Below, piece after piece: positions 1-10,486 of a DNA stretch of 64,000 nucleotides (position 1 is the stretch's first letter; every line of letters starts with the position of its first letter). The notes under the pieces are model-generated. The model worked only from the letters and a program-made list of their open reading frames with translations. It was not told where the DNA came from and ran no database searches. Source of the stretch: Bauldia litoralis (GTDB lineage Bacteria; Pseudomonadota; Alphaproteobacteria; Rhizobiales; Kaistiaceae). Both the position numbers and the translations under genes were made by a program. The DNA lies in assembly GCA_945882315.1 (NCBI GenBank), contig CAMCWB010000009.1, positions 1 through 64,000 on the forward strand, written 5' to 3'.

Positions 1-1
1 C

Positions 2-220
2 GTCGCAGAGCGCTTCATCCGAACCTTGAAGGAGAACCTGCTGTGGGTGCGGGCCTTCGACACCATCGAAGAGCTGCGAGCCGCCCTCGTCGAGTTTGCC
101 ACTCGCTACAACCAAACCTGGCTCGTCGCCCGGCACGGCTATCGTACCCCGACCCAGGTGCGGGCCGATCAATCCCGACTTGATCAGAACGCTACGGCCA
201 ATCTAAAGTTGGCCGCTTGA
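2..220 (+). CDS. IS transposase, C-terminal fragment (integrase core)
   Basis: The frame is open from the window edge and gives about 72 residues. It begins VAERFIRTLKENLLW and continues with a YNQTWLVARHGYRTP segment, typical of the last part of the rve/DDE integrase core of IS3/IS481-like transposases. The N-terminal part lies outside the window, so the family cannot be fixed. The IS end probably falls just after the stop, about 221-260, where the opposite-strand gene also ends abruptly. That suggests the IS inserted into or deleted part of that gene. Confidence 0.75.
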   Translation, partial: VAERFIRTLKENLLWVRAFDTIEELRAALVEFATRYNQTWLVARHGYRTPTQVRADQSRLDQNATANLKLAA

Positions 221-226
221 ATAGGC

Positions 227-868
227 TCAGCCGAGTGTCTCAAAACCGGGCCACAGTACACGCTTGGCCTTCGCCGCCTCGCTCATGTCCTCCGGGTTCA
301 GCCCCAGCGCACTGTCGATCATCGCGCGGAATGTCGATTTCGAGATCTTCCAGCCGATCGACTGGCCCTGCTCGTCGAGCTTGCCGCCCTGCACGGTGAA
401 ATTCTGCCAGAACTTGCGCCGGGCATGCGGGCCATCGGCAACGGTGAACTCGGCATGCCTCGTCCAGAAGCGATCCGCCTGGTTCAGGGCCTGCTACCAT
501 TCCCGCAGCGCACGCCGGTCGTGGGCGATCTGCTGGCGGCGGATCTCGATGGCGCGTTCAAAGCCCTCGCGCGACAATGTCCGCGTCGCGACCAGCGTCG
601 CGCCTTCGAGGTCCATGGCCACCGCGGCGGGCAGATGGAAGGGCAGTTGGGCCTGCGCCGCATCGGCGGCCTTTTCCGCCCTGACGCGCAGGGCACGTGC
701 CCGCCCATCAATCCGGCCGACGACCCCATCGATCCCGGCCAGATACTGACCATCGGGATCAATGTCGTCCCAGCGATCGACGGCAGCCTGCCGTTTGTTG
801 ATGGCGCGGCCGGCGATCACGTCGCCGACGATCTCGGCGACGACGTCATTCAGACGCATTATTCCCAT
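227..868 (-). pseudogene. Decayed ICE/phage-type gene with in-frame amber stop, truncated by the IS
   Basis: An ATG at 868 with a good AGGAG ribosome site opens a frame (MGIMRLNDVVAEIVG...) that runs to a TAG at 494-496. The same frame continues open (QALNQADRFWTRH...) down to a TGA at 227-229. The downstream part contains FTVADGPHARRKFWQNFTV and a SALGLNPEDMS-like segment. It resembles the C-terminal half of phage/ICE DUF669-like proteins, but I am unsure. The upstream part looks like a different, coiled ICE protein, so the reading frame may be a deletion fusion. The 5' end overlaps the preceding gene by about 20 nt. The 3' end falls next to the IS end. Function unknown. Confidence 0.45.
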
Positions 869-1682
869 GATGGGTCTCCTGTTCGTAAAGGCTGCTGAAT
901 CCGGTGAGCCAGGCCGCCGCGCGGCGGATCGGCACGGTGTCGATGGCGTGACGCGACGCGGGCGGGATGCGGCGCACGGCTTCCGCGCCATCGGGCTGTT
1001 CGCCGATGAGTTCGACGATCTCGTCGATCCGGGCGCAGATCGCCCGGTCCTCGACCGTGCCGAAGACCGCGACCTGGCGGGCACGCTCCTCCGGGCTCAG
1101 CGGCGATGCCTTCTCCGCCTCGAGACGCTGGACACTTTCCTGCGTGCGCTTGAGCCGATCGATCGACCGCTCCAGCCGTGCCTCGGCTGCACGTCGTAGC
1201 GCTGCCCGCGTCGGCTCCTCGCCCTGTTCAAGCCGCTCATCGAGGGTGCGGCGTACGATGCCAGGGTCGGCCGCCTCCGCATCGCGGATGATGCGGGCGT
1301 CGTGGATCTATTCGCGGCGTAGGCCGAGATCGGCCATCGACAGCTTGTTTGGGTCCGCAACATGCTGGTTGTCGGCCTGAGTACAAGCCTCACCACGCTG
1401 TTGCGCCATGTCGTATTCGTCCGCGAGCCGCCGCTTGGCCTCGGCTTCGATGGTCAGCGCATCGGCCTGTGCGCGATGGGCAGCGGCGATGAGTTCGTCA
1501 TGGGCGTTCTTTGCCTTGCACAACCGGGCCGTTCGCTTGGCGACGTCATAGGCGAGGGACGCGATCTCTCGCGCCTCGAGAACCTCCGCTGCCGATCGGG
1601 CATTGGCCAACGCCGCGGCCGCCTTCTCGACCAGCCGTGGAAGGGTCGAGCTGTCCCGGTCGTCGATGGTGAGCGTGTTCAT
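846..1682 (-). pseudogene. Conserved ICE-type protein of unknown function, interrupted by an in-frame TAG
   Basis: The ATG at 1682 overlaps the stop of the upstream gene as ATGA, so the two are translationally coupled. The frame is charged and helical, rich in Ala, Glu and Arg. It reads to a TAG at 1308-1310 inside a conserved-looking stretch (ADLGLRRE-stop-IHDARIIRDAEAADPG) and then stays open to a TGA at 846-848, for 279 codons in all. The clean continuation of coding-type sequence on both sides of the stop indicates a single nonsense mutation or a base error. No enzymatic motif is recognised. The neighbours are typical of rhizobial integrative elements. Confidence 0.5.
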
Positions 1683-2386
1683 GCGTCACCGTGGACGATG
1701 AGCTGGAAGGTCTCCTTGCCCGCATGCACGGTACCGTCGGCGATCACAAGCTGCCGCCATATGGCCTTGCGCTTGAACAGATCGATCAGCCGCATCGTTG
1801 CTGCATCGGCCTCTTCGAGCAGCTGCTTCCCGGCGAGCCAGGGATTTTCGGTATCGCTTGCGGCTTTCAACAGCCGAAGCACGGCTGCCTGTTTGGGGCC
1901 GAAATCGTGCCATTCATTGGCGACACGAACTCTGCCAAAATCCTCGCCATGCCAGACGTCGCTCGGTGTGGGTTTGCCGGGCTCGGTCGCCAATGCATGC
2001 GCCCGTTCAAAGCGGTCGCGCTCTTCGCGGGTGAGGATCAGGTCCTCCCGGCGCACGATCACCGCCGGCGCCCCTGATTTAAGATAAATGTATTGGTTCG
2101 GTCGCTCGGTCCGGAAGGAACGAACCTCCCCTTGTCCAGCGCGGAAGATCTCCAAAAGGCTCGCCCGCTGCAACGGCTGGGGGCCGGTTACAAACAGCAT
2201 GCCTTGCGGCGAGCGGGCGTTATTGTCGCCGAGCTCCCAGCCGTTTGTCTCCGCCGGCATATCGACCACGAATACCGAAAGCTGCAGTACCTCGTCGAGC
2301 GCATAGTCCTCTATGTCGCTCAGCGGCAGGTTCCAGCGCTTGGCGACATCGGCGATCCGATACCAGCGCTTCTGCGGCAGCGGCAT
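1679..2386 (-). CDS. Hypothetical ICE protein, possible DNA-binding domains
   Basis: The protein is 235 residues from the ATG at 2386, chosen because it has an AGGAG ribosome site; a longer frame from 2425 lacks one. The N-terminus (KRWYRIADVAKRWNLP) looks like a MerR/excisionase-type helix-turn-helix used to read a promoter or recombination site. The C-terminal 90 residues (EWHDFGPKQAAVLRLLKAA...) look like a winged-helix fold. I cannot assign a family. The stop overlaps the next gene's start (ATGA), so the two are probably co-translated. Confidence 0.6.
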   Translation of the reverse strand: MPLPQKRWYRIADVAKRWNLPLSDIEDYALDEVLQLSVFVVDMPAETNGWELGDNNARSPQGMLFVTGPQPLQRASLLEIFRAGQGEVRSFRTERPNQYIYLKSGAPAVIVRREDLILTREERDRFERAHALATEPGKPTPSDVWHGEDFGRVRVANEWHDFGPKQAAVLRLLKAASDTENPWLAGKQLLEEADAATMRLIDLFKRKAIWRQLVIADGTVHAGKETFQLIVHGDA

Positions 2387-2452
2387 GTCGCTTCTCCTTT
2401 CGCTTGAGCGCAAAATGCATAACACGACCGGCGCGACAGCGGCCTCGGGCGC

Positions 2453-3181
2453 CTAACCGACCAGTTCGTAACGATGCAGGCGGTACTCGATCAACGAGGC
2501 GAAAACGCCAAACCGCTCGGCCAGGTCGAGAAGCAGCTCCTCGACGCGCATCGGATCGGCCTTGGCGCGGAGCACCGGTTGACCCTCGCCGACATCCACC
2601 AGCGGCAACTTCAGAGAGATCGCCCGGCGAACCAGCTCCCGATGCAGCAGTGCGCGCGGTGCCAACAGCGCGCCCATGAACTCGTTGGCGCGAAATTCCC
2701 GCCAGTCGATTCCACCACGACCGCGCACCGGGGCCTCAAGATGCCCCTCGTCTGGCGTCACCATCGAGAACGCCGGCCGGCCGGTCTGGCGCAGCATCGA
2801 TGGGCCATCAAACAGCGCGTGGCCAAATTCATGCGCCAGCGTCGATCGCTTGAGGTAGTCCTGCTCCTCGAGCAGCTCGGCGTTCAGGCTGATCAGCACG
2901 ATCCCCGGCAAGGCCGGATCGGCCTCCGTCACGCCCAGCGCGGCTCGACCTTGTCCGTCGTGGACGCTGCGCTCGAAATCCCAGTGGGCGGCGATGGCGA
3001 TGCCGTTGACGAGCATGTTGCCGGCCGAACGGGTCAGCCGCTCAAGATCGAGACAGGGAACCTGGCTGCGCCGTGCAATTTGCCAGCGTACCTGCTCGGC
3101 GACGCTCCATATTTGCTGCGCCTTCATCGGGCGCGGTTCCAGGCTGGTGCGATAGAAGGGGTAGGCAACCTCGAGCGCCAT
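2453..3181 (-). CDS. ImmA/IrrE-family metallo-endopeptidase
   Basis: This is a 242-residue protein with the zinc-peptidase motif HEFGH at residues 117-121 (STLAHEFGHALFDG) and a downstream FRANEFMGALLAP stretch, as in the ImmA/IrrE (COG2856, DUF955) family. Known members cleave a partner XRE repressor and so release mobile-element genes after DNA damage. The ATG at 3181 shares one base with the stop of the upstream XRE gene (TGATG), so the pair is coupled. The paired regulator makes an ICE or phage induction switch likely. The specific target is inferred. Confidence 0.85.
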   Translation of the reverse strand: MALEVAYPFYRTSLEPRPMKAQQIWSVAEQVRWQIARRSQVPCLDLERLTRSAGNMLVNGIAIAAHWDFERSVHDGQGRAALGVTEADPALPGIVLISLNAELLEEQDYLKRSTLAHEFGHALFDGPSMLRQTGRPAFSMVTPDEGHLEAPVRGRGGIDWREFRANEFMGALLAPRALLHRELVRRAISLKLPLVDVGEGQPVLRAKADPMRVEELLLDLAERFGVFASLIEYRLHRYELVG

Positions 3182-3459
3182 CAACCCCTCCCGGCGGTCT
3201 GCTGCCGGTAAACGGCGATCACATCCTCTGTGCGGGCCCGCATATCCGGGGGCAGCAGTCTGGCGGCGGCGAACAGATCGTCCGCCGGCAAGCCAAGGGC
3301 GCTGGCCAGAGCCGATACCAGACGATCCAGCGGTGGGTTTTCCAGCTCGCGCTCGATGCGCGAGAGATAGGCGATGGAGACATCGACCCGCCGCGCCAGT
3401 TCGGTGAGCGTCATGCCGCGCTCCTCACGCTCGCGTCGGATGTATTTGCCAAAGGCCAT
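3181..3459 (-). CDS. XRE-family transcriptional regulator (ImmR-like partner of ImmA)
   Basis: This 92-residue protein carries one helix-turn-helix at about residues 10-65 (GMTLTELARRVDVSIAYLSRIE). It is short and has no oligomerisation domain, as is usual for mobile-element repressors. It is transcribed divergently from topoisomerase III, with 118 bp between the start codons. The ImmA-type protease follows it immediately. It probably represses the divergent promoter and is inactivated by that protease. The repeated TTATGTTC boxes at 3516-3534 are the obvious candidate operator. Confidence 0.85.
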   Translation of the reverse strand: MAFGKYIRREREERGMTLTELARRVDVSIAYLSRIERELENPPLDRLVSALASALGLPADDLFAAARLLPPDMRARTEDVIAVYRQQTAGRG

Positions 3460-3515
3460 ATGCTTTCTCCATTGCGGCTTGGCGTGAATACGTCAAACGA
3501 TGGCTTGCGACTCCC

Positions 3516-3534
3516 TTATGTTCACTTTATGTTC
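3516..3534 (+). promoter_or_regulatory. Direct repeat TTATGTTC x2, candidate operator of the XRE regulator
   Basis: Two identical 8-bp boxes (3516-3523 and 3527-3534) are spaced 11 bp start to start, one helical turn. They lie between the divergent XRE and topoisomerase genes. The repeats are seen directly; regulator binding is inferred from position. Confidence 0.45.
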
Positions 3535-3577
3535 TCACCGTTGCGCTGTCGAATCGAATCTTCAAAACGAGGCCGTC

Positions 3578-6004
3578 ATGGCCGATCAAATTGTCATCAC
3601 GGAGAAAACCAGCCAGGCGAAAGACGTCCGCGCCGCGGTGGGTTCTCGCTACGGAGACATCCTGCCGGCCGAGGGTCATTTGTTCGACTTGCTCGAGCCG
3701 GAGGACGTTGTGCCGGCGTGGAAGCGCTGGTCACCCATCCTTCTCAGGCCGGACGGCCTCTATGGCACCCGCCCGGCGGCTGGCGGTAACAAGGCGACAA
3801 AGCTCAAGGCGATTCGCGAGGCATTGCGCAGCGCCAGGCGGGTCTGGCTCGCCACCGACTGCGACCGCGAAGGCCAGCTGATCGGTCAGGAAATTCTCGA
3901 GCATTACAAATATCGCGGCGAGGTCATGCGGGTGCTGTTCACCGCACAGGACCCGCAAAGCATTCATGACGCTTTCGGTCGGGCAAGACCCAATTCGGAA
4001 TATGCCCGCCTTTACGCCGCCGCCGTCGCGCGCCGGCAGGCCGACCAGATCTACAACCTGTCACTGACCCGCACCGCGACCGTTATCCTCGGTCGGGGCG
4101 CGCGACGAGTCATCGGAGTCGGACGGGTGAAGACGCCGACGCTCGCCATCGTGTGCAAGCGCGAACTGGAAATCCGCAACTTCGTGCCAACAGCGTATTT
4201 TGAGGTCGTCGCCACCGCGAAAGTCGCGGGCGGTCAGTTCCAGATGCGGCATGCACCGCAAGAGCGAATTCTTAAACGCGAGATTGCCGAGACGGTCGTC
4301 AATGCCGCCGAGAACTTCGAGGGGCCACTTGGCGTCCGCGTCGAGGACAAGAAGCAAGGGCCGCCCAAACTGCACGATTTGCCGTCGCTGCAGAAGTTGT
4401 GCAGTTCGCGATTCGGCTGGCCGGCCAGCAAGACGCTGGAAGTGGCGCAGGAACTCTATGACGGCCAGGGCAAGAAGATCATCACTTATCCCCGCGCCGA
4501 GGTACGCTATCTCCCGCAGAGCCTGATACCGGATGTGCCGAAGATCGTGGCCGGGCTGCAGGTGGGACAATCGTTCGCCGCGATCCCGGTGCCCGTACCG
4601 CCAGTTGTTCGCAAAGGTGCCAGCGGTTCCTTCCACGACAAGGGGCTCGAGGGTGCAAGCCATCATGCGGTCATTCCCAACGTCAACACGGTCGACAAGC
4701 TTCGTGAGGTCTGGCCGCGCCTGTCGGCCGACGAGAAAAAACTGTTCGACGTCATCGCGCGGGCCTATCTCGCCGCCGTCATGCCCGACTTCCGTTACCG
4801 GCAGACAACCGCGACGCTCGACGTAAAAGGCTTTCCGTTCAAGGCAACCGGGCGCCAGCCGATCGATCTCGGCTGGCGCGCCGCATTCCCGGAATGGCAG
4901 CCGGCCGACGAAAAGGGAGCCGATGCGCAATTGCTCCCGCCGCTTCGCGACGGCGAGACCGCAAAACTGCAGGACCCGACCATCGAGGACAAGGAGACCC
5001 GTCCTCCGCCGCGCTACAACGAAGGCACGTTGATCGAGGCGATGCAGAATGCCTGGCGCTTTGTTGATGACGAGGTTCTGCGGGAACGCCTGAGGGAAGC
5101 CAAGGGCATTGGCACGCCGGCAACCCGGGCCGAGATCATCGGCGGTCTGAAGAAGCAGGGCTTTCTGATTATCGAGCGCAAGAACATCGTGCCGACCGAG
5201 ACCGGCCTGTCGCTGTTCGGCGTTCTCAGACAGGCTGATCCGGCACTGGTCGACCCGGGCGTAACGGCGCAGCTCGAATGCCTGCTCGACGATGTCGTGG
5301 TCGGCAAGCAGGAGATGATCGGCGCCATCGATGCCGTCTGCGATGTTGCCCAGCGGATCATCGGCAAGCTCACCGACGGCGCTGGAGGACCACACTTGCT
5401 TGGAGGCGCGGTTGGCAAAGATGGCGGAGGACCCCCGCCAACGCCGGCGATGACGCGCTATGCCGACAGTCTCGCCCGCCAGAAGCGCATCAAGCCACCA
5501 CCCGGCTACAGGACCTCGATGTCGGTCTGCCGGGAATTTCTCAATCAGCACGCGCCCGGGAAAGCCGCGGCAAAAGACGCCGGGAAGCGTGGGTCCAAAT
5601 CAGTTTTGCCAACGAACATCTTGCCAGCGGAGGACGTTGCGCAGGAACAGGGTGCTGGCATTCCTGAAGAGGCCGCGGCCAATTCTCCCACTATCTCCGA
5701 ACGGATTGAAACGAACCTCGGCACCAAGCGCCGCAAGCGCGAGCCGAAGTCGGGCAGCAAGCCCCGTAAACCGGCGGCGTCCGGATCGGCGGGAACACGG
5801 AAGCGATCGGGAAAACATCAAGCCGATGCAGTTATTGCTCCCGCAGCTGCCGCTCAGAAAAACGCGCTCACGGTTACGCCACTGCGGATCCCCTATGGCA
5901 ATAAGGATGTGGCCCTTCGCCTTGGCGCTCGCTATGGCTCGGCCGGATGGTATGCTCCGCCTGGTCTCGATCTTACGGTGTTCGGCGAGCGCGGATGGCT
6001 TTAA
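3578..6004 (+). CDS. topB: DNA topoisomerase III (type IA) with DUF5710 tail
   Basis: The enzyme is 808 residues from the ATG at 3578 (MADQIVITEKTSQAK), preceded by GAGG; an upstream in-frame ATG at 3500 would add an unlikely leader. Visible features are the TOPRIM acidic motif ATDCDREGQ (residues 92-100), GRVKTPTL, and the catalytic Tyr304 in ITYPRAE. Type IA enzymes pass single strands and resolve recombination or conjugation intermediates. The region after about residue 620 is Lys/Arg-rich and low complexity. The last 45 residues (IPYGNKDVALRLGARYG ... WYAPPGLDL) match the DUF5710 motif seen in mobile-element topoisomerases and TraC-type primases. This is an element-borne paralogue, not the chromosomal topA. 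Confidence 0.92.
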   Translation: MADQIVITEKTSQAKDVRAAVGSRYGDILPAEGHLFDLLEPEDVVPAWKRWSPILLRPDGLYGTRPAAGGNKATKLKAIREALRSARRVWLATDCDREGQLIGQEILEHYKYRGEVMRVLFTAQDPQSIHDAFGRARPNSEYARLYAAAVARRQADQIYNLSLTRTATVILGRGARRVIGVGRVKTPTLAIVCKRELEIRNFVPTAYFEVVATAKVAGGQFQMRHAPQERILKREIAETVVNAAENFEGPLGVRVEDKKQGPPKLHDLPSLQKLCSSRFGWPASKTLEVAQELYDGQGKKIITYPRAEVRYLPQSLIPDVPKIVAGLQVGQSFAAIPVPVPPVVRKGASGSFHDKGLEGASHHAVIPNVNTVDKLREVWPRLSADEKKLFDVIARAYLAAVMPDFRYRQTTATLDVKGFPFKATGRQPIDLGWRAAFPEWQPADEKGADAQLLPPLRDGETAKLQDPTIEDKETRPPPRYNEGTLIEAMQNAWRFVDDEVLRERLREAKGIGTPATRAEIIGGLKKQGFLIIERKNIVPTETGLSLFGVLRQADPALVDPGVTAQLECLLDDVVVGKQEMIGAIDAVCDVAQRIIGKLTDGAGGPHLLGGAVGKDGGGPPPTPAMTRYADSLARQKRIKPPPGYRTSMSVCREFLNQHAPGKAAAKDAGKRGSKSVLPTNILPAEDVAQEQGAGIPEEAAANSPTISERIETNLGTKRRKREPKSGSKPRKPAASGSAGTRKRSGKHQADAVIAPAAAAQKNALTVTPLRIPYGNKDVALRLGARYGSAGWYAPPGLDLTVFGERGWL

Positions 6005-6094
6005 CTTATCGTCATGAACATGTACCAGATCGGGAGAAAGACGAATACCCTCGCGATGGTGGTCCACTTTTCATTCGCCTTTGGAGAATCCAAA

Positions 6095-6538
6095 ATGAAA
6101 TCCTTTAAAATCGCACTCCTGTCCACTTTCGCCGCCGTCTTCCTGGCCGTCCCCCTGGCGCCCGCCCAAGAGAGCAGCGTCTATAAGAGTCTTCTCACGC
6201 CCCTTCTCCAGACCGGCGCCGATACTGTCGACCAGCCGGTCGTGTATCCCGACGGGACGCCGAAGATCACAGCAGCGATCGTTACCATCCCGCCTGGCGG
6301 TGAAACCGGCTGGCACAATCATGAGGTGCCGCTCTTTGTCTATATCCTCGAGGGTGAGGTGTCGGTCGACTACGGGGAGAAGGGAACCAAGGTCTATAAA
6401 CAGGGCGGCAGTTTCATGGAGGCCATGAACTCTGCCCACAATGCTACGAATAAGGGTACAACCCCGGTCCGCATAATGGCTGTCTATATGGGCGCCGAGG
6501 GCAAGCTCAATGCGGCGACAGCGGAGGCGCCAAAGTAG
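6095..6538 (+). CDS. Secreted cupin-domain protein
   Basis: The protein is 147 residues from the ATG at 6095, which has a GGAG ribosome site. It starts with a clear Sec signal peptide (MKSFKIALLSTFAAVFLAV, cut near APAQ). The remainder is a single cupin barrel: PPGGETGWHNHEVP gives the first metal-ligand motif, and GGSFMEAMNSAHNATN the second, with His in the expected place. Small periplasmic cupins of this kind are often metal-binding proteins without a known reaction. It lies alone downstream of topB, followed by a strong hairpin. Its role in the element is unknown. Confidence 0.85.
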   Translation: MKSFKIALLSTFAAVFLAVPLAPAQESSVYKSLLTPLLQTGADTVDQPVVYPDGTPKITAAIVTIPPGGETGWHNHEVPLFVYILEGEVSVDYGEKGTKVYKQGGSFMEAMNSAHNATNKGTTPVRIMAVYMGAEGKLNAATAEAPK

Positions 6539-6562
6539 ATCGCGACCCGGAAGTCCGCCGGC

Positions 6563-6590
6563 TGCTTCCTGCGCGACGGCGCAGGAAGCA
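6563..6590 (+). terminator. Perfect 12-bp hairpin after the cupin gene
   Basis: TGCTTCCTGCGC at 6563-6574 pairs exactly with 6579-6590 around a 4-nt loop (GACG). It is 24 nt after the cupin stop and lies between convergent genes. No long T run follows, so efficiency is uncertain. Confidence 0.5.
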
Positions 6591-6680
6591 TTGGCTGTCG
6601 TTTCTCGACGATGACCCGGCGGGGCGAATATTCGATCCCAGAAAACAACTATTGCTAGAGGCCTGCCCCTCGGCAGAGCT

Positions 6681-7124
6681 TCATTTGAGCGGTTGTAGTT
6701 TTGCGGTTGCCGAGAGCCAGTTCCGCCATGCGTTCGCAGCCAGCATGCCGACCAGCATTGCACCGACAAAAAGCAGAACCTTGGGCTCCAGAACTGTGAG
6801 GGCGGCGAGCGCCGGGCCTGGGCAGATGCCTGCCAGCCCCCAGCCCACACCGAACAGGGCCGAACCGCCGACAAGCGGCAGATCGATCTGGCGAAGGGTC
6901 GGGATATTGAATTTCTTCCCGACGACGGGCGCGCTTCGGGAGAGGGTTAGCCGATAGCCGGGGATCACGACGGCGAGAGCTCCGGCCATCACGAAGATCA
7001 GCGTCGGGTCCCAAGTGCCGGTGACGTCAAGGAAGTTGAGGACGCGCGCCGGGTTGACCATGTCGGAGATCGCAAGCCCGGCGCCGAAAATGATACCGGC
7101 CATGAGCGCAAAGACGATTGCCAT
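6681..7124 (-). CDS. YeeE/YedE-family sulfur transport protein (DUF6691/PmpB-like)
   Basis: This 147-residue membrane protein has about four hydrophobic segments. It shows the family's small-residue motifs: GAGLAISDMVNPARVLNFLD near the N-terminus and GWGLAGICPGPALAAL in the middle, where the Cys of the CPGPA motif is thought to handle sulfur. Family members move thiosulfate or sulfane-sulfur species across the inner membrane. It is the last gene of the operon with the other YeeE half and the MBL-rhodanese protein. The two short halves together correspond to one full YeeE channel. Confidence 0.85.
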   Translation of the reverse strand: MAIVFALMAGIIFGAGLAISDMVNPARVLNFLDVTGTWDPTLIFVMAGALAVVIPGYRLTLSRSAPVVGKKFNIPTLRQIDLPLVGGSALFGVGWGLAGICPGPALAALTVLEPKVLLFVGAMLVGMLAANAWRNWLSATAKLQPLK

Positions 7125-7134
7125 CTCCGCGCTC

Positions 7135-7560
7135 CTAGACCAGGTGCCGGACGACGAACACGGTTGCCGCGGCCGTCGTCATGAAGGTCACGGTGGCGAC
7201 GACCGAGCGCGCCGAGAACCGCGCAAGCCCGCAAACCGCGTGACCGCTGGTGCAGCCTGACCCGAAGGTCGCTCCAAATCCGACGATCAGGCCCGAGATC
7301 GCCATCACGGGCAAACTCCCCGCAAAGCTCACGTCGCTCCAGTCCTTGAAGCCAGCCGCCGTCACGAGGAACGCGCCAAGCGGCAATCCCGCGATGAAGG
7401 CTAATCGCCACCCCCGGCCGGCGGCGTCGCTCGCCACCATGGCATTCAGGACGATGCCGCACACGCCGGTGATCCGCCCGATTGTAAGCATCAATAGGAC
7501 TGCCGCCAGGCCGATCAGGGCCCCGCCTGCAAGACCCGGAACCGGAGCAAAGCTCGTCAT
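7135..7560 (-). CDS. YeeE/YedE-family sulfur transport protein (PmpA-like half)
   Basis: The ATG at 7560 overlaps the stop of the upstream MBL-rhodanese gene as ATGA and gives 141 residues with about four membrane segments. The family motif is FGATFGSGCTSGHAVCGLARFS, with the conserved GCTSGH cysteine. GRITGVCGI and similar Gly-rich segments line the channel in known homologues. It sits 10 nt upstream of the second half. The operon matches bigR/blh-type sulfide detoxification loci, where the channel pair exports or exchanges sulfur compounds while the enzyme oxidises persulfide. Confidence 0.87.
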   Translation of the reverse strand: MTSFAPVPGLAGGALIGLAAVLLMLTIGRITGVCGIVLNAMVASDAAGRGWRLAFIAGLPLGAFLVTAAGFKDWSDVSFAGSLPVMAISGLIVGFGATFGSGCTSGHAVCGLARFSARSVVATVTFMTTAAATVFVVRHLV

Positions 7561-8633
7561 GTTGTTCCCCCTTCCTGGATTTTCACGATCGCCCCCCCAG
7601 CCGCTTTCCACGCCGCAAGCCCCCCTTGGAGGTAACAGGCGGAGACGACGCCCGCTTCCTGTGCGGCCTGCACGGCCATCGCCGAGCGCTCGCCGTAAGC
7701 GCAGTAGAAGACGATGCGTTTTCCCGCGCCGAGCGCCTTGATGGCACCGTGCGGCCCGAGAGTGTCGGAAAGTCTCGTATAGGGCTCACTGAGCGCGTCG
7801 GGAATCGCGCCATGCCGCTCGCGCTCGCCCTTCTCGCGAAGGTCGACGAAGACAGCATCTTGCCGACCGAGAAGCGACATCGCCTCCTCGGCGCGGAGCG
7901 CCAAGCCTTTCTGCGCCACCGCATCCTGCGCGAGGCCGATCTTCATGTTCGCCGGCACCGCCACGTCCATCATTTTCGGGTTGGGCAGGTTCAAGCTGTT
8001 CATCAGGGCTACATACTCGTCGATCGATTTTACTTGGAGCCGCGGATTGTAGCGCTTCTCCTCGCCGATGGTGCTGACGGTGTCGCCCTTGTAGTCGTGC
8101 GCCGGGAAGACCAGCGTCTCCTCGGGCAGCCTCAGAAGTCGATTGAAGATCGAGTCATATTGCGATCGCGGATCGCCGTTCTGGAAGTCTGTCCGGCCCG
8201 TGCCGCGGATGAGCAGCGTGTCGCCCGTGAACACCCGGTCGTTGAGAGCGAAGGAATAGGAGTCGTCGGTATGGCCGGGCGTATAGATGACGTCCAGGCT
8301 GACATTCTCGATCTCGAGCTTGTCGCCATCGGCGAGTCGCATCGACACGACGTCGGCCTTGGTGTTCTCGCCCATAACCGTGACGCAGCGCGTCCGGTCG
8401 CGGAGCGCGCCGAGCCCTGTTACGTGATCGGCGTGCAGATGCGTGTCGACCGCCTTGACTAGGCGGAGGTCGAGTTCGTTCATCAGCTGAATGTAGCGGT
8501 CGACCTTTTCCAACACTGGGTCGATGATCAGCGCCTCGGCGCCTTTGCGGCTGGCGAGCACGTAGCTGTAGGTGCCCGACGTTGAATCGAAAAGTTGGCG
8601 GAAGTCTTGAACAGCCCTCTGATCTTCTCCCAC
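7557..8633 (-). CDS. MBL-fold persulfide dioxygenase fused to a rhodanese domain
   Basis: The protein is 358 residues. The N-terminal beta-lactamase fold carries THLHADH (residues 64-70), plus GHTDDS and FTGDTLLIRGTGRTDF, as in ETHE1/Blh persulfide dioxygenases that oxidise glutathione persulfide to sulfite. The C-terminal rhodanese domain has the active-site Cys311 in CAYGERS. The start is a GTG at 8633, inside the preceding small open frame, so it may depend on coupled translation. It heads the operon with two YeeE/YedE channels. The usual BigR regulator gene is not next to it in this window. Confidence 0.9.
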   Translation of the reverse strand: MGEDQRAVQDFRQLFDSTSGTYSYVLASRKGAEALIIDPVLEKVDRYIQLMNELDLRLVKAVDTHLHADHVTGLGALRDRTRCVTVMGENTKADVVSMRLADGDKLEIENVSLDVIYTPGHTDDSYSFALNDRVFTGDTLLIRGTGRTDFQNGDPRSQYDSIFNRLLRLPEETLVFPAHDYKGDTVSTIGEEKRYNPRLQVKSIDEYVALMNSLNLPNPKMMDVAVPANMKIGLAQDAVAQKGLALRAEEAMSLLGRQDAVFVDLREKGERERHGAIPDALSEPYTRLSDTLGPHGAIKALGAGKRIVFYCAYGERSAMAVQAAQEAGVVSACYLQGGLAAWKAAGGAIVKIQEGGTT

Positions 8634-8761
8634 GCCGACGCTGTGACAGGGTCATCGAAGTCCGCAAGCGCCCTTTCGAGCAGCTCAGCGATGCGCTGCC
8701 ACTCTTCAGACGTTAAAGCCGGGGGTTGCCCCCCGGCGATCAGTCTCAGAACGACGGCCAT
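8528..8761 (-). CDS. Small open frame of unknown function overlapping the MBL-rhodanese start
   Basis: The 77-codon frame begins MAVVLRLIAGGQPPALT and has a believable helical middle (EEWQRIAELLERALADFDDP). Its last 30 codons overlap the MBL gene in another frame and look non-native. The first 45 codons may be a real small gene, possibly frameshifted near 8640 so that it runs into the MBL frame. The overlap would let it couple translation of the MBL enzyme. No family is recognised. Confidence 0.35.
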   Translation of the reverse strand: MAVVLRLIAGGQPPALTSEEWQRIAELLERALADFDDPVTASAWEKIRGLFKTSANFSIQRRAPTATCSPAAKAPRR

Positions 8762-8830
8762 GTGGCCCTCCTCAGGTTACCTTGGCGATCAGCCCGTCCT
8801 TCGTGGTGACCGTGGCGAAGAACTCGCGCC

Positions 8831-8854
8831 TCCCTATCCGATCATCCATAGGGA
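8831..8854. promoter_or_regulatory. Inverted repeat TCCCTAT-N10-ATAGGGA, candidate operator
   Basis: A perfect 7-bp inverted repeat lies about 70 bp upstream of the sulfur operon's first start codon. The position suits an operator for an ArsR-type sulfur regulator such as BigR, but no regulator gene is visible nearby. Regulation is inferred only from position and symmetry. Confidence 0.3.
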
Positions 8855-9119
8855 TAGTTGCCACGTTCCCAGCGGCTGCATAGTCGCTTCTCGCATAATC
8901 GCATAGGCTAGACCGTCATCGCAGCTATCGGTCGCGAACGTAGGAGCGGGCTGACGGCAATTCCGATTTGGGCACGAATATCGGCGACACGGCGTCGTCA
9001 CTCTGCTTCGTATGTCCCCTTACGTGTCAGCTTGGTGTGAGAGCACTTCTGCGGTGATGGATTGCTGCCCTTCTGAATTCTTCGGCAAGAAATCTGTTCG
9101 GTGAGATTGGCGCTCGTTC

Positions 9120-9207
9120 ATGTCGCAAGGATGTCGCATGGAGCAGCCGGGACGCCTCGGGAATCGGCGGAAATGCTTGGTATTATGTCGCATAGCCGAC
9201 GCGACAT
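9120..9207. repeat. ATGTCGCA boxes (three direct, one inverted) beside the att site
   Basis: ATGTCGCA occurs at 9120-9127, 9131-9138 and 9185-9192, and its inverse core GCGACAT at 9201-9207. All four are within 160 bp of the tRNA fragment. Clustered short repeats next to an attachment core are typical arm-type sites for tyrosine integrase or excisionase. The rest of 8762-9278 holds no gene I can support. Confidence 0.45.
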
Positions 9208-9278
9208 GGCTTAGCTGATTGAAAACCTAAGTCATTGATTTGACGAATATTTCATATTCTTAGACATAGCGGGGCAAA

Positions 9279-9326
9279 CGGACTCTGACTCCGCCAGTCT
9301 AGGTTCGAATCCTAGCGCCCCAGCCA
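9279..9326 (+). other. 3' fragment of tRNA-Gln(CTG): attachment site of the integrative element
   Basis: The sequence has an anticodon stem-loop with loop CTCTGAC (anticodon CTG), a complete T arm (CTAGG-TTCGAAT-CCTAG at 9299-9315), the acceptor 3' strand CGCCCCA, a discriminator base and encoded CCA (9324-9326). The matching 5' acceptor strand (TGGGGCG) and the D arm are absent upstream. The homology begins at the anticodon stem, where tyrosine integrases commonly cross over. This is therefore the displaced att copy, with the intact tRNA expected at the other end of the element. Confidence 0.75.
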
Positions 9327-9454
9327 ACCTCATCGAATCCGCCCAAATCTCCCGCCCTCGCCCGTTGCCGCCTCCCCGATTTCCTGCAATGAAACAGGGC
9401 AAATCTCTTTTGGCCGCAGCCGCTAGGGCCCGGCCCGGGAAGGAACCGGAATCG

Positions 9455-10486
9455 ATGCTGACCGCGCTTTTGACCGCCCCCAGGACCTTCGAGATCGTCG
9501 AGCGGCCGAAGCCCACCGTCAAAGCGGGCGAGGTCCTGATCCGGACGGCGGCGACCGCCGTCTGTCACACCGACCTCGGCATGTATACCGGCCACGCCCC
9601 GGGCATCAAATATCCGTTGGTGCTCGGCCATGAATCGACCGGGACCGTCGAGGAGTTGGGCGCCGGCGTCACCGGCCTGGCGCCCGGCGACAAGGTCATC
9701 ATCAACCCGATCATCGCCTGCGGGCACTGCGATTCATGCCGGCGCGGCCGCAAGAATCTCTGCCGCAATGCCGGGCTTTTCGGCCGCGAGGTCGAAGGTT
9801 CGCTGAATCAGTATGTCAGCCTGCCGGCCGAATATGTCTTCCTGCTGCCGCCGAACGTCTCGCTCGCCGATGCGACGATCATCGAGACGCTGGCGACCGT
9901 CCGTCATGCGCAGGAGCGGGCGCAGATCAAGCCCGGCGAATCCGTCGTCGTCTTCGGCGGCGGCACCGCCGGCCTCCTGCATGTGCGGCTCGCCGTGCTC
10001 TCCGGCGCCGATCCGGTGATGGTCATCTCGCGGTCCAAGTGGAAGCTCGACATGGGCCTCGCCATGGGCGCCAAGCATGCGATCCAGAAGGATGCCGAGG
10101 CGGCCGTCGACGACGTCCTCAAATTCACCAATGGCGAAGGCGCCGACGTCATCATCGACACGGCCGGCACGGCCGACACTCTCCGCATCGGCATCGACAT
10201 GATGAAGCCGGGCGGCCGCTTCTCATCCTTCTCGCTCGGGCACGAGCCCTTCCAGGGTTTCAGCCCCTTCCCGATGTATTACAAGGAGCTGACGATCATC
10301 GGCTCGCGTGGCCTCACCGCCGAGGACATGCAGCCCTCGATCGACCTCGTCGCCTCGGGCAAGATCGACGTCGCCGGCTTCGTCTCCAACACCTACCCGC
10401 TGACCCAGGCCGACGCCGCCTTCAAGGAATATGAGAGCAATCCGGGCCGGATCCTTCGTCTCGTGATCGACTCCACGCAGACCTGA
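9455..10486 (+). CDS. Zinc-dependent alcohol dehydrogenase (MDR family)
   Basis: The ATG at 9455 follows an AAGGA ribosome site and gives 343 residues, the usual family length. The catalytic zinc ligands are seen in CHTDLG and GHEST, and the structural-zinc cysteine cluster in CGHCDSCRRGRKNLC. The nucleotide-binding loop is VVVFGGGTAGL. The enzyme oxidises an alcohol, or reduces an aldehyde, with NAD(P). The upstream in-frame extension reaches into the tRNA-fragment flank and is rejected. It is the first chromosomal gene beyond the att site. It is followed by an oxidoreductase and an acyl-CoA dehydrogenase on the same strand, suggesting a catabolic gene set. Confidence 0.9.
   Translation: MLTALLTAPRTFEIVERPKPTVKAGEVLIRTAATAVCHTDLGMYTGHAPGIKYPLVLGHESTGTVEELGAGVTGLAPGDKVIINPIIACGHCDSCRRGRKNLCRNAGLFGREVEGSLNQYVSLPAEYVFLLPPNVSLADATIIETLATVRHAQERAQIKPGESVVVFGGGTAGLLHVRLAVLSGADPVMVISRSKWKLDMGLAMGAKHAIQKDAEAAVDDVLKFTNGEGADVIIDTAGTADTLRIGIDMMKPGGRFSSFSLGHEPFQGFSPFPMYYKELTIIGSRGLTAEDMQPSIDLVASGKIDVAGFVSNTYPLTQADAAFKEYESNPGRILRLVIDSTQT

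Follow-up and report, generated by a model that had tools for sequence, protein, structure and literature searches.

What is half a tRNA gene doing on its own, next to a cluster of short repeated boxes, in the genome of Bauldia litoralis? The window analysed here comprises bases 1-64,000 of contig C9, in a genome of 162 contigs. Positions 9279-9326 of this window are the 3′ half of a tRNA-Gln(CTG) gene, comprising the anticodon stem-loop, the T arm, the acceptor 3′ strand and GCCA. The initial annotation had called a truncated tRNA-Gln(CTG), and the truncation is real: ARAGORN returned zero tRNA calls over the 64-kb window, and the 48 bp are an exact match to an intact gene elsewhere in the genome, with identity extending another 2 bp, to 9328. 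We consider it highly probable that the half tRNA is the right end of an element integrated in tRNA-Gln(CTG) and that the boxes are sites of a lambda-type integrase encoded on a second contig, C60. The features of this predicted right end are listed below, with distances measured from the anticodon loop.

1..9278, no strand assigned: right-hand part of the putative integrated element, on the element side of attR and continuing past the contig start
9120..9127, plus strand: putative outer arm box ATGTCGCA, 155 bp from the loop, in an 11-bp-spaced pair with the box at 9131
9131..9138, plus strand: putative outer arm box ATGTCGCA, 144 bp from the loop
9185..9192, plus strand: inner box ATGTCGCA of the putative P arm, 90 bp from the loop
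9200..9207, minus strand: inner box ATGTCGCG of the putative P arm, 75 bp from the loop, at the position of the inner pair of complete relatives
9228..9240, minus strand: perfect match (AATCAATGACTTA) to the IHF consensus WATCAANNNNTTR, 42 bp from the loop
9279..9328, plus strand: putative attR core, a 50-bp direct repeat of C60:2216-2265 at 100% identity
9283..9289, plus strand: anticodon loop CTCTGAC, the predicted crossover region, by the half-tRNA starts of about 90 relatives

Four boxes had been reported beside the half tRNA. Four are indeed present, within 88 bp, three of them exact copies of ATGTCGCA; the fourth, ATGTCGCG, is however inverted and carries one mismatch. The number of boxes is ordinary (three exact copies in 64 kb, against 2.8 expected). 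Their clustering is unusual, as three within 80 bp occurred in none of 200 simulated 64-kb sequences and an 11-bp-spaced pair in none of 40 simulated sequences. The feature had been drawn from position 8762, which is too far to the left: we found nothing specific at 8762-9100. GC content was tried as a mark of foreign DNA and rejected, being flat across the 9.3-kb boundary.

The check that had been proposed was to look for an intact tRNA-Gln(CTG) accompanied by an integrase gene and by a second copy of 9279-9326; contig C60 has all three. The intact gene lies at C60:2218-2291 on the minus strand and contains the exact partner (C60:2216-2265) of the half tRNA; the repeat spans 50 bp, from the anticodon stem to 2 bases beyond the tRNA. 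This is the only exact copy of the half tRNA elsewhere in the genome, the other match being the 3′ end of tRNA-Gln(TTG). At its 3′ end, the intact tRNA-Gln(CTG) is 56 bp away from the stop of a tyrosine integrase gene (C60:989-2161, PF00589), and none of the 14 other PF00589 matches in the genome has a box pair at its locus. Thus, the proposed mobile-element boundary at the half tRNA was borne out by a second copy that is an intact tRNA with an adjoining integrase. An attachment site also identifies the left 9.3 kb as an insertion, as had been claimed, although it does not date the event. Fragments of tRNA genes are frequent in genomes, and the half tRNA might be a decayed gene or a chance duplication with no element behind it. 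This is scarcely credible given 50 bp of perfect identity that ends at the anticodon stem, the integrase beside the intact copy, and the conserved arm architecture and locus synteny described below.

C60 runs 2.2 kb into the element and C9 begins 9.3 kb from its right end; the middle is absent from the assembly. The two ends, on separate contigs, would nevertheless belong to one element. In two genomes of the same family (G004 and G006), tRNA-Gln(CTG) stands between homologues of C9 genes (39-50 kb) and homologues of the GppA-like, RlmE-like and MFS genes of C60, in the gene order and orientation predicted by a one-locus model. Because these homologues flank the same tRNA in relatives, we place C60 and C9 at one chromosomal locus, which by synteny is split by the element. 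The C60 and C9 copies form a direct repeat, with an intact tRNA gene and a 3′ fragment in the same orientation, and this predicted orientation agrees with the synteny. In a third genome, both blocks flank tRNA-Gln, but the tRNA gene itself is inverted (G001:C2, L236 8238-8311).

Neither G004 nor G006 offers a clean empty site: between the tRNA and the C9-type genes, both carry 14-15 kb of unlike DNA. We found no orthologue (E < 1e-100) of the gene immediately right of attR (9455-10486) in 27 family genomes, and the synteny of genes farther out was therefore used as the marker. Window positions 9329 to ~39000 (9.3 to about 39 kb) have no counterpart beside the tRNA-Gln locus in G004 or G006, nor in G001; this block may be specific to the lineage or a separate acquisition of earlier date.

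The tRNA-Gln(CTG) gene is an integration hotspot in the genomes of this family. G012 carries an element with an unrelated integrase in the same gene (L051, G012:C16, 504-1731 and 18112). G013 carries an element in tRNA-Gln(CTG) with nothing nearby recognised as an integrase (L053, G013:C1, 1542-1615 and ~13751).

A complete relative of the Bauldia element is present in G005 (L052), where a single contig holds the intact tRNA-Gln(CTG), an integrase 61.5% identical to that of C60 and, 15.6 kb away, the half tRNA. Both ends of this element carry 11-bp-spaced box pairs. Its interior is prophage-like (phrog_684, phrog_992), unlike the cargo in the window, and its P arm deviates, with boxes at 101 and 158/169 bp and no good IHF match (2 mismatches). 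With two ends on different contigs, at a hotspot where the G012 and G013 elements have other integrases or none recognised, the Bauldia locus could also hold tandem elements in one tRNA gene, the C60 integrase coming from one and the right end on C9 from another. The half tRNA would then remain an attachment site, but for a different integrase. Such an arrangement needs a third copy of the tRNA 3′ half, which the assembly does not contain, and the C9 boxes match the C60 boxes in motif and 11-bp spacing, as the two ends of the G005 element match each other. We therefore regard tandem elements as unlikely and proceed with a single element, the integrase of which is the one on C60.

That protein has several features expected of a lambda-type integrase. 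R212, K247, H321, R324, H353 and Y363 (the catalytic R-K-H-R-H-Y) are invariant in 25 homologues. The structural model (mean pLDDT 84) gives a fold match over full-length lambda Int and also matches Tn1549 Int, the closest sequence with a solved structure. Arm-binding domains begin with three strands and a helix, and these are present at the N-terminus of the model at a pLDDT of about 85; the Pfam arm-binding domain PF14657 is matched below cut-off (E 0.039). The genome encodes both IHF subunits. The putative IHF sites in the arms are consensus matches at conserved distances, at which IHF would be expected to bend the DNA.

Scans for the integrase family yielded 80 genome loci and 80 viral contigs; the genome loci come nearly all from Hyphomicrobiales and other Alphaproteobacteria. 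A strict pair was defined as NTGTYGCR-NNN-NTGTYGCR (11-bp spacing) and sought within 400 bp of the integrase stop. It occurs there at 78 of the 115 loci for which 3′ flank is available, compared with 21 occurrences in the other 2.41 Mb, and is absent near the integrase in the remaining 37 relatives. Spacings of 8, 9, 10, 12 and 13-16 bp are found at no more than 3 of 115 loci. With the motif filter removed, the best score is 13-16 out of 16 positions at 82 of 115 loci, and none of 108 control windows exceeds 12. Within the box, the core TGT and the GC carry 1.8-2 bits and the flanks much less. The integrases of the family differ by 35-50%; therefore, shared ancestry alone cannot explain the retention of the boxes. 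No match to the family above 27% identity was detected among the isolated phage records searched, and the integrase family that shares the boxes is apparently large and uncharacterised. By their placement, the boxes are very probably integrase arm sites. This agrees with the initial annotation, which had read the locus as an attachment site with arm sites: 11-bp pairs also lie beside homologous integrases and at both ends of complete elements.

Several further loci were noted. In L064 (G321, 1115-1347), a 39%-identical integrase and the same kind of box pair, ATGTCGCATCGATGTCGCA, lie near an intact tRNA-Thr(CGT). At two Devosia loci (L091 and L090), about 700-900 bp separate the integrase stop from the tRNA half. 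Both repeat copies of L091 (integrase end, position 1591) seem to be without a normal 5′ half, and ARAGORN calls one of them tRNA-Phe.

Box pairs are also found in front of the integrase gene. A pair with 10-bp spacing lies just upstream of it on C60 (L019, 938-955) and in G005 (L052, 2689-2706), an arrangement that might let the integrase regulate its own expression. As a general signal of autoregulation, however, upstream pairs were rejected because they are rare (4-5 of 158). The C60 pair, with those in a few relatives, could alternatively indicate that the boxes are operators of a regulator encoded by the element, such as its XRE or a MerR-like gene, rather than arm sites. Operators would not be expected to track the integrase over about 100 loci with differing cargo, nor to form pairs at either end of the element with constant distances to the crossover, in steps near 11 bp, and promoter pairs are as rare as just stated. 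Arm sites near an integrase gene could autoregulate too, as Panis et al. (2010; PMC2951348) report for KplE1 IntS. Thus, operators are very unlikely, and arm sites remain our reading of the boxes.

The layout of the far arm was compared in relatives for which both ends could be seen (L081, L088, L090, L091, L121, L134, L196 and L224, with L075 and L129 less cleanly). Outward from the loop, the P arm has an IHF-like site at 42 or 53 bp in most of them; beyond it come an inner and an outer pair, which point in opposite directions and are about 68-70 bp apart where both exist. In L081, which uses the same tRNA target, the IHF site is at 42 bp, the inner pair at 76/86 bp and the outer pair at 144/156 bp from the loop. 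The right end in the window has the same parts at nearly the same distances (75/144 vs. 76/144 bp).

At the integrase end, the family uses two polarities. At about 90 loci a half tRNA follows the integrase in the same orientation and begins at the anticodon loop; the targets include tRNAs for Phe, Gln, Met/Ile, Arg, Thr, Cys, His, Pro and Lys, and the intact tRNA at the far end was seen in L081, L088, L121, L134, L196 and L224. By comparison with these relatives, the exact crossover point of the Bauldia element would also lie at its anticodon loop. The Bauldia element, that of G005 (L052) and L070 instead have an intact tRNA-Gln beside the integrase, in the opposite orientation. We treated these three as the flipped set (both ends seen in G005, only the integrase end in L070) and left out L107 and L064.

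In the common type, the gap between the P′ box pair and the loop is 39-40 bp in 65 of 71 cases, with exceptions at 38, 41, 51, 52 and 61 bp. The three flipped members have gaps of 84, 85 and 84 bp, with an IHF-like site at 41-42 bp. The P′ arm is thus 44 bp longer than in the common type, or four 11-bp steps; the common-type outliers at 51 and 52 bp are one such step away. In a FastTree phylogeny, the flipped members form one group (support 91, under the value of 95 that the tool stars), near tRNA-Gln users of common polarity. This could suggest that the polarity flip probably arose once within tRNA-Gln users, which the tree does not firmly support. The near-palindromic loop of tRNA-Gln(CTG) was considered as a cause of the flip and rejected, because the loops of Phe, Thr(TGT) and Arg(CCT) are equally symmetric. 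On balance, we favour the view that one integrase family uses the same tRNA-Gln loop in two polarities, a minority having a flipped core between otherwise unchanged arms, with helical phase kept. In that branch, the attachment site would have been rebuilt round an inverted core, keeping the P distances and adding 44 bp with an IHF-type site to P′.

Together, these observations suggest how the locus may have formed. The window would start inside an integrative element, with 9120-9328 as its right end (attR core and P arm). A lambda-type tyrosine integrase, built of a core-binding part and an N-terminal arm-binding part, would have joined attP to the anticodon loop of the tRNA. With a replacement 3′ half supplied by the element, the tRNA gene would have stayed whole next to the integrase, and the 3′ half that it had before would have been displaced to 9279-9326. 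The ATGTCGCA boxes would serve as sites for the N-terminal arm-binding domain: the integrase-side (P′) arm would have a single pair spaced by 11 bp, and the far (P) arm an outer pair with inner boxes. By bending each arm, IHF could allow arm-bound subunits to contact the core as well. Binding of these sites by the proteins, excision of the element and its present mobility would all be in keeping with this architecture.

A lambda-type attachment site in a tRNA gene is of a kind already known. Like the islands in Islander, in which 2083 anticodon-centred sites are counted among 3919 islands (PMC4383910), the Bauldia element combines an intact tRNA, a displaced 3′ fragment in the same orientation and an integrase at one end; unlike them, its ends are on separate contigs, and its length and interior fall outside the assembly. 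It shares with lambda Int and attP (PMC4880445) the core-binding and N-terminal arm-binding parts, arm sites that flank the core and IHF sites between them, whereas its arm motif is NTGTYGCR in 11-bp-spaced pairs and its core a tRNA anticodon loop. Mycobacteriophage integrases (PMC10865867) likewise have paired putative arm-type sites around a core with a tRNA 3′ half, and their integration regenerates the tRNA; the Bauldia integrase, in contrast, belongs to an alphaproteobacterial family. The C60 end falls in the "opposite, convergent" class of integrase-tRNA pairs, given as 438 of 1273 in the available text of Panis et al. (2010; PMC2951348), which does not describe an integrase family that has both polarities. 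Unlike the C60 end, most members of its integrase family have a half tRNA, not an intact one, beside the integrase. Neither the NTGTYGCR arm motif nor a family that combines the two polarities turned up in the limited literature that we searched, and the box grammar and the opposite polarity seem to be undescribed there.

The part of the element that lies in the window encodes the following genes.

1..220, plus strand: 3′ end of a gene at the contig edge, which by reading its translation by eye we take to encode a transposase
2453..3184, minus strand: ImmA/IrrE-type metallopeptidase (PF06114)
3181..3459, minus strand: XRE-type regulator (PF01381)
3575..6004, plus strand (longest ORF from 3500): plasmid-type DNA topoisomerase III (PF01131)
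6014..6538, plus strand: cupin-domain protein (PF07883)
6681..7124, minus strand: DUF6691 membrane protein, partner of the YeeE-like gene (PF20398)
7135..7611, minus strand: sulphur transport protein, YeeE/YedE-like (PF04143)
7557..8633, minus strand: metallo-beta-lactamase fold with rhodanese, persulfide dioxygenase-like (PF00753, PF00581; NCBIfam matches below cut-off)

Transposase copies are a frequent cause of assembly breaks, and C9 begins in such a fragment. The nearest relatives of the topoisomerase III are on Bradyrhizobium plasmids (79%). Of an integrative and conjugative element, for which relaxase and type IV secretion genes would be expected, the assembled parts show only this plasmid-type topoisomerase, the interior being absent from the assembly, and no virion family was detected among the genes searched in the 9.3 kb of C9 and the 2.2 kb of C60. 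The trio at 6681-8633, next to the element's end, resembles known sulphide/persulphide-handling operons and is likely involved in sulphide or persulphide handling.

Thus, one end is fixed for an acquired element that likely carries sulphide/persulphide-handling genes. For the alphaproteobacterial integrase family, the comparison provides a putative grammar of NTGTYGCR pairs at 11 bp, an IHF site and fixed distances to the loop, with which both ends of such elements can be found even in fragmented genomes. The flipped core would be a natural experiment in how arm spacing and helical phase constrain the intasome.
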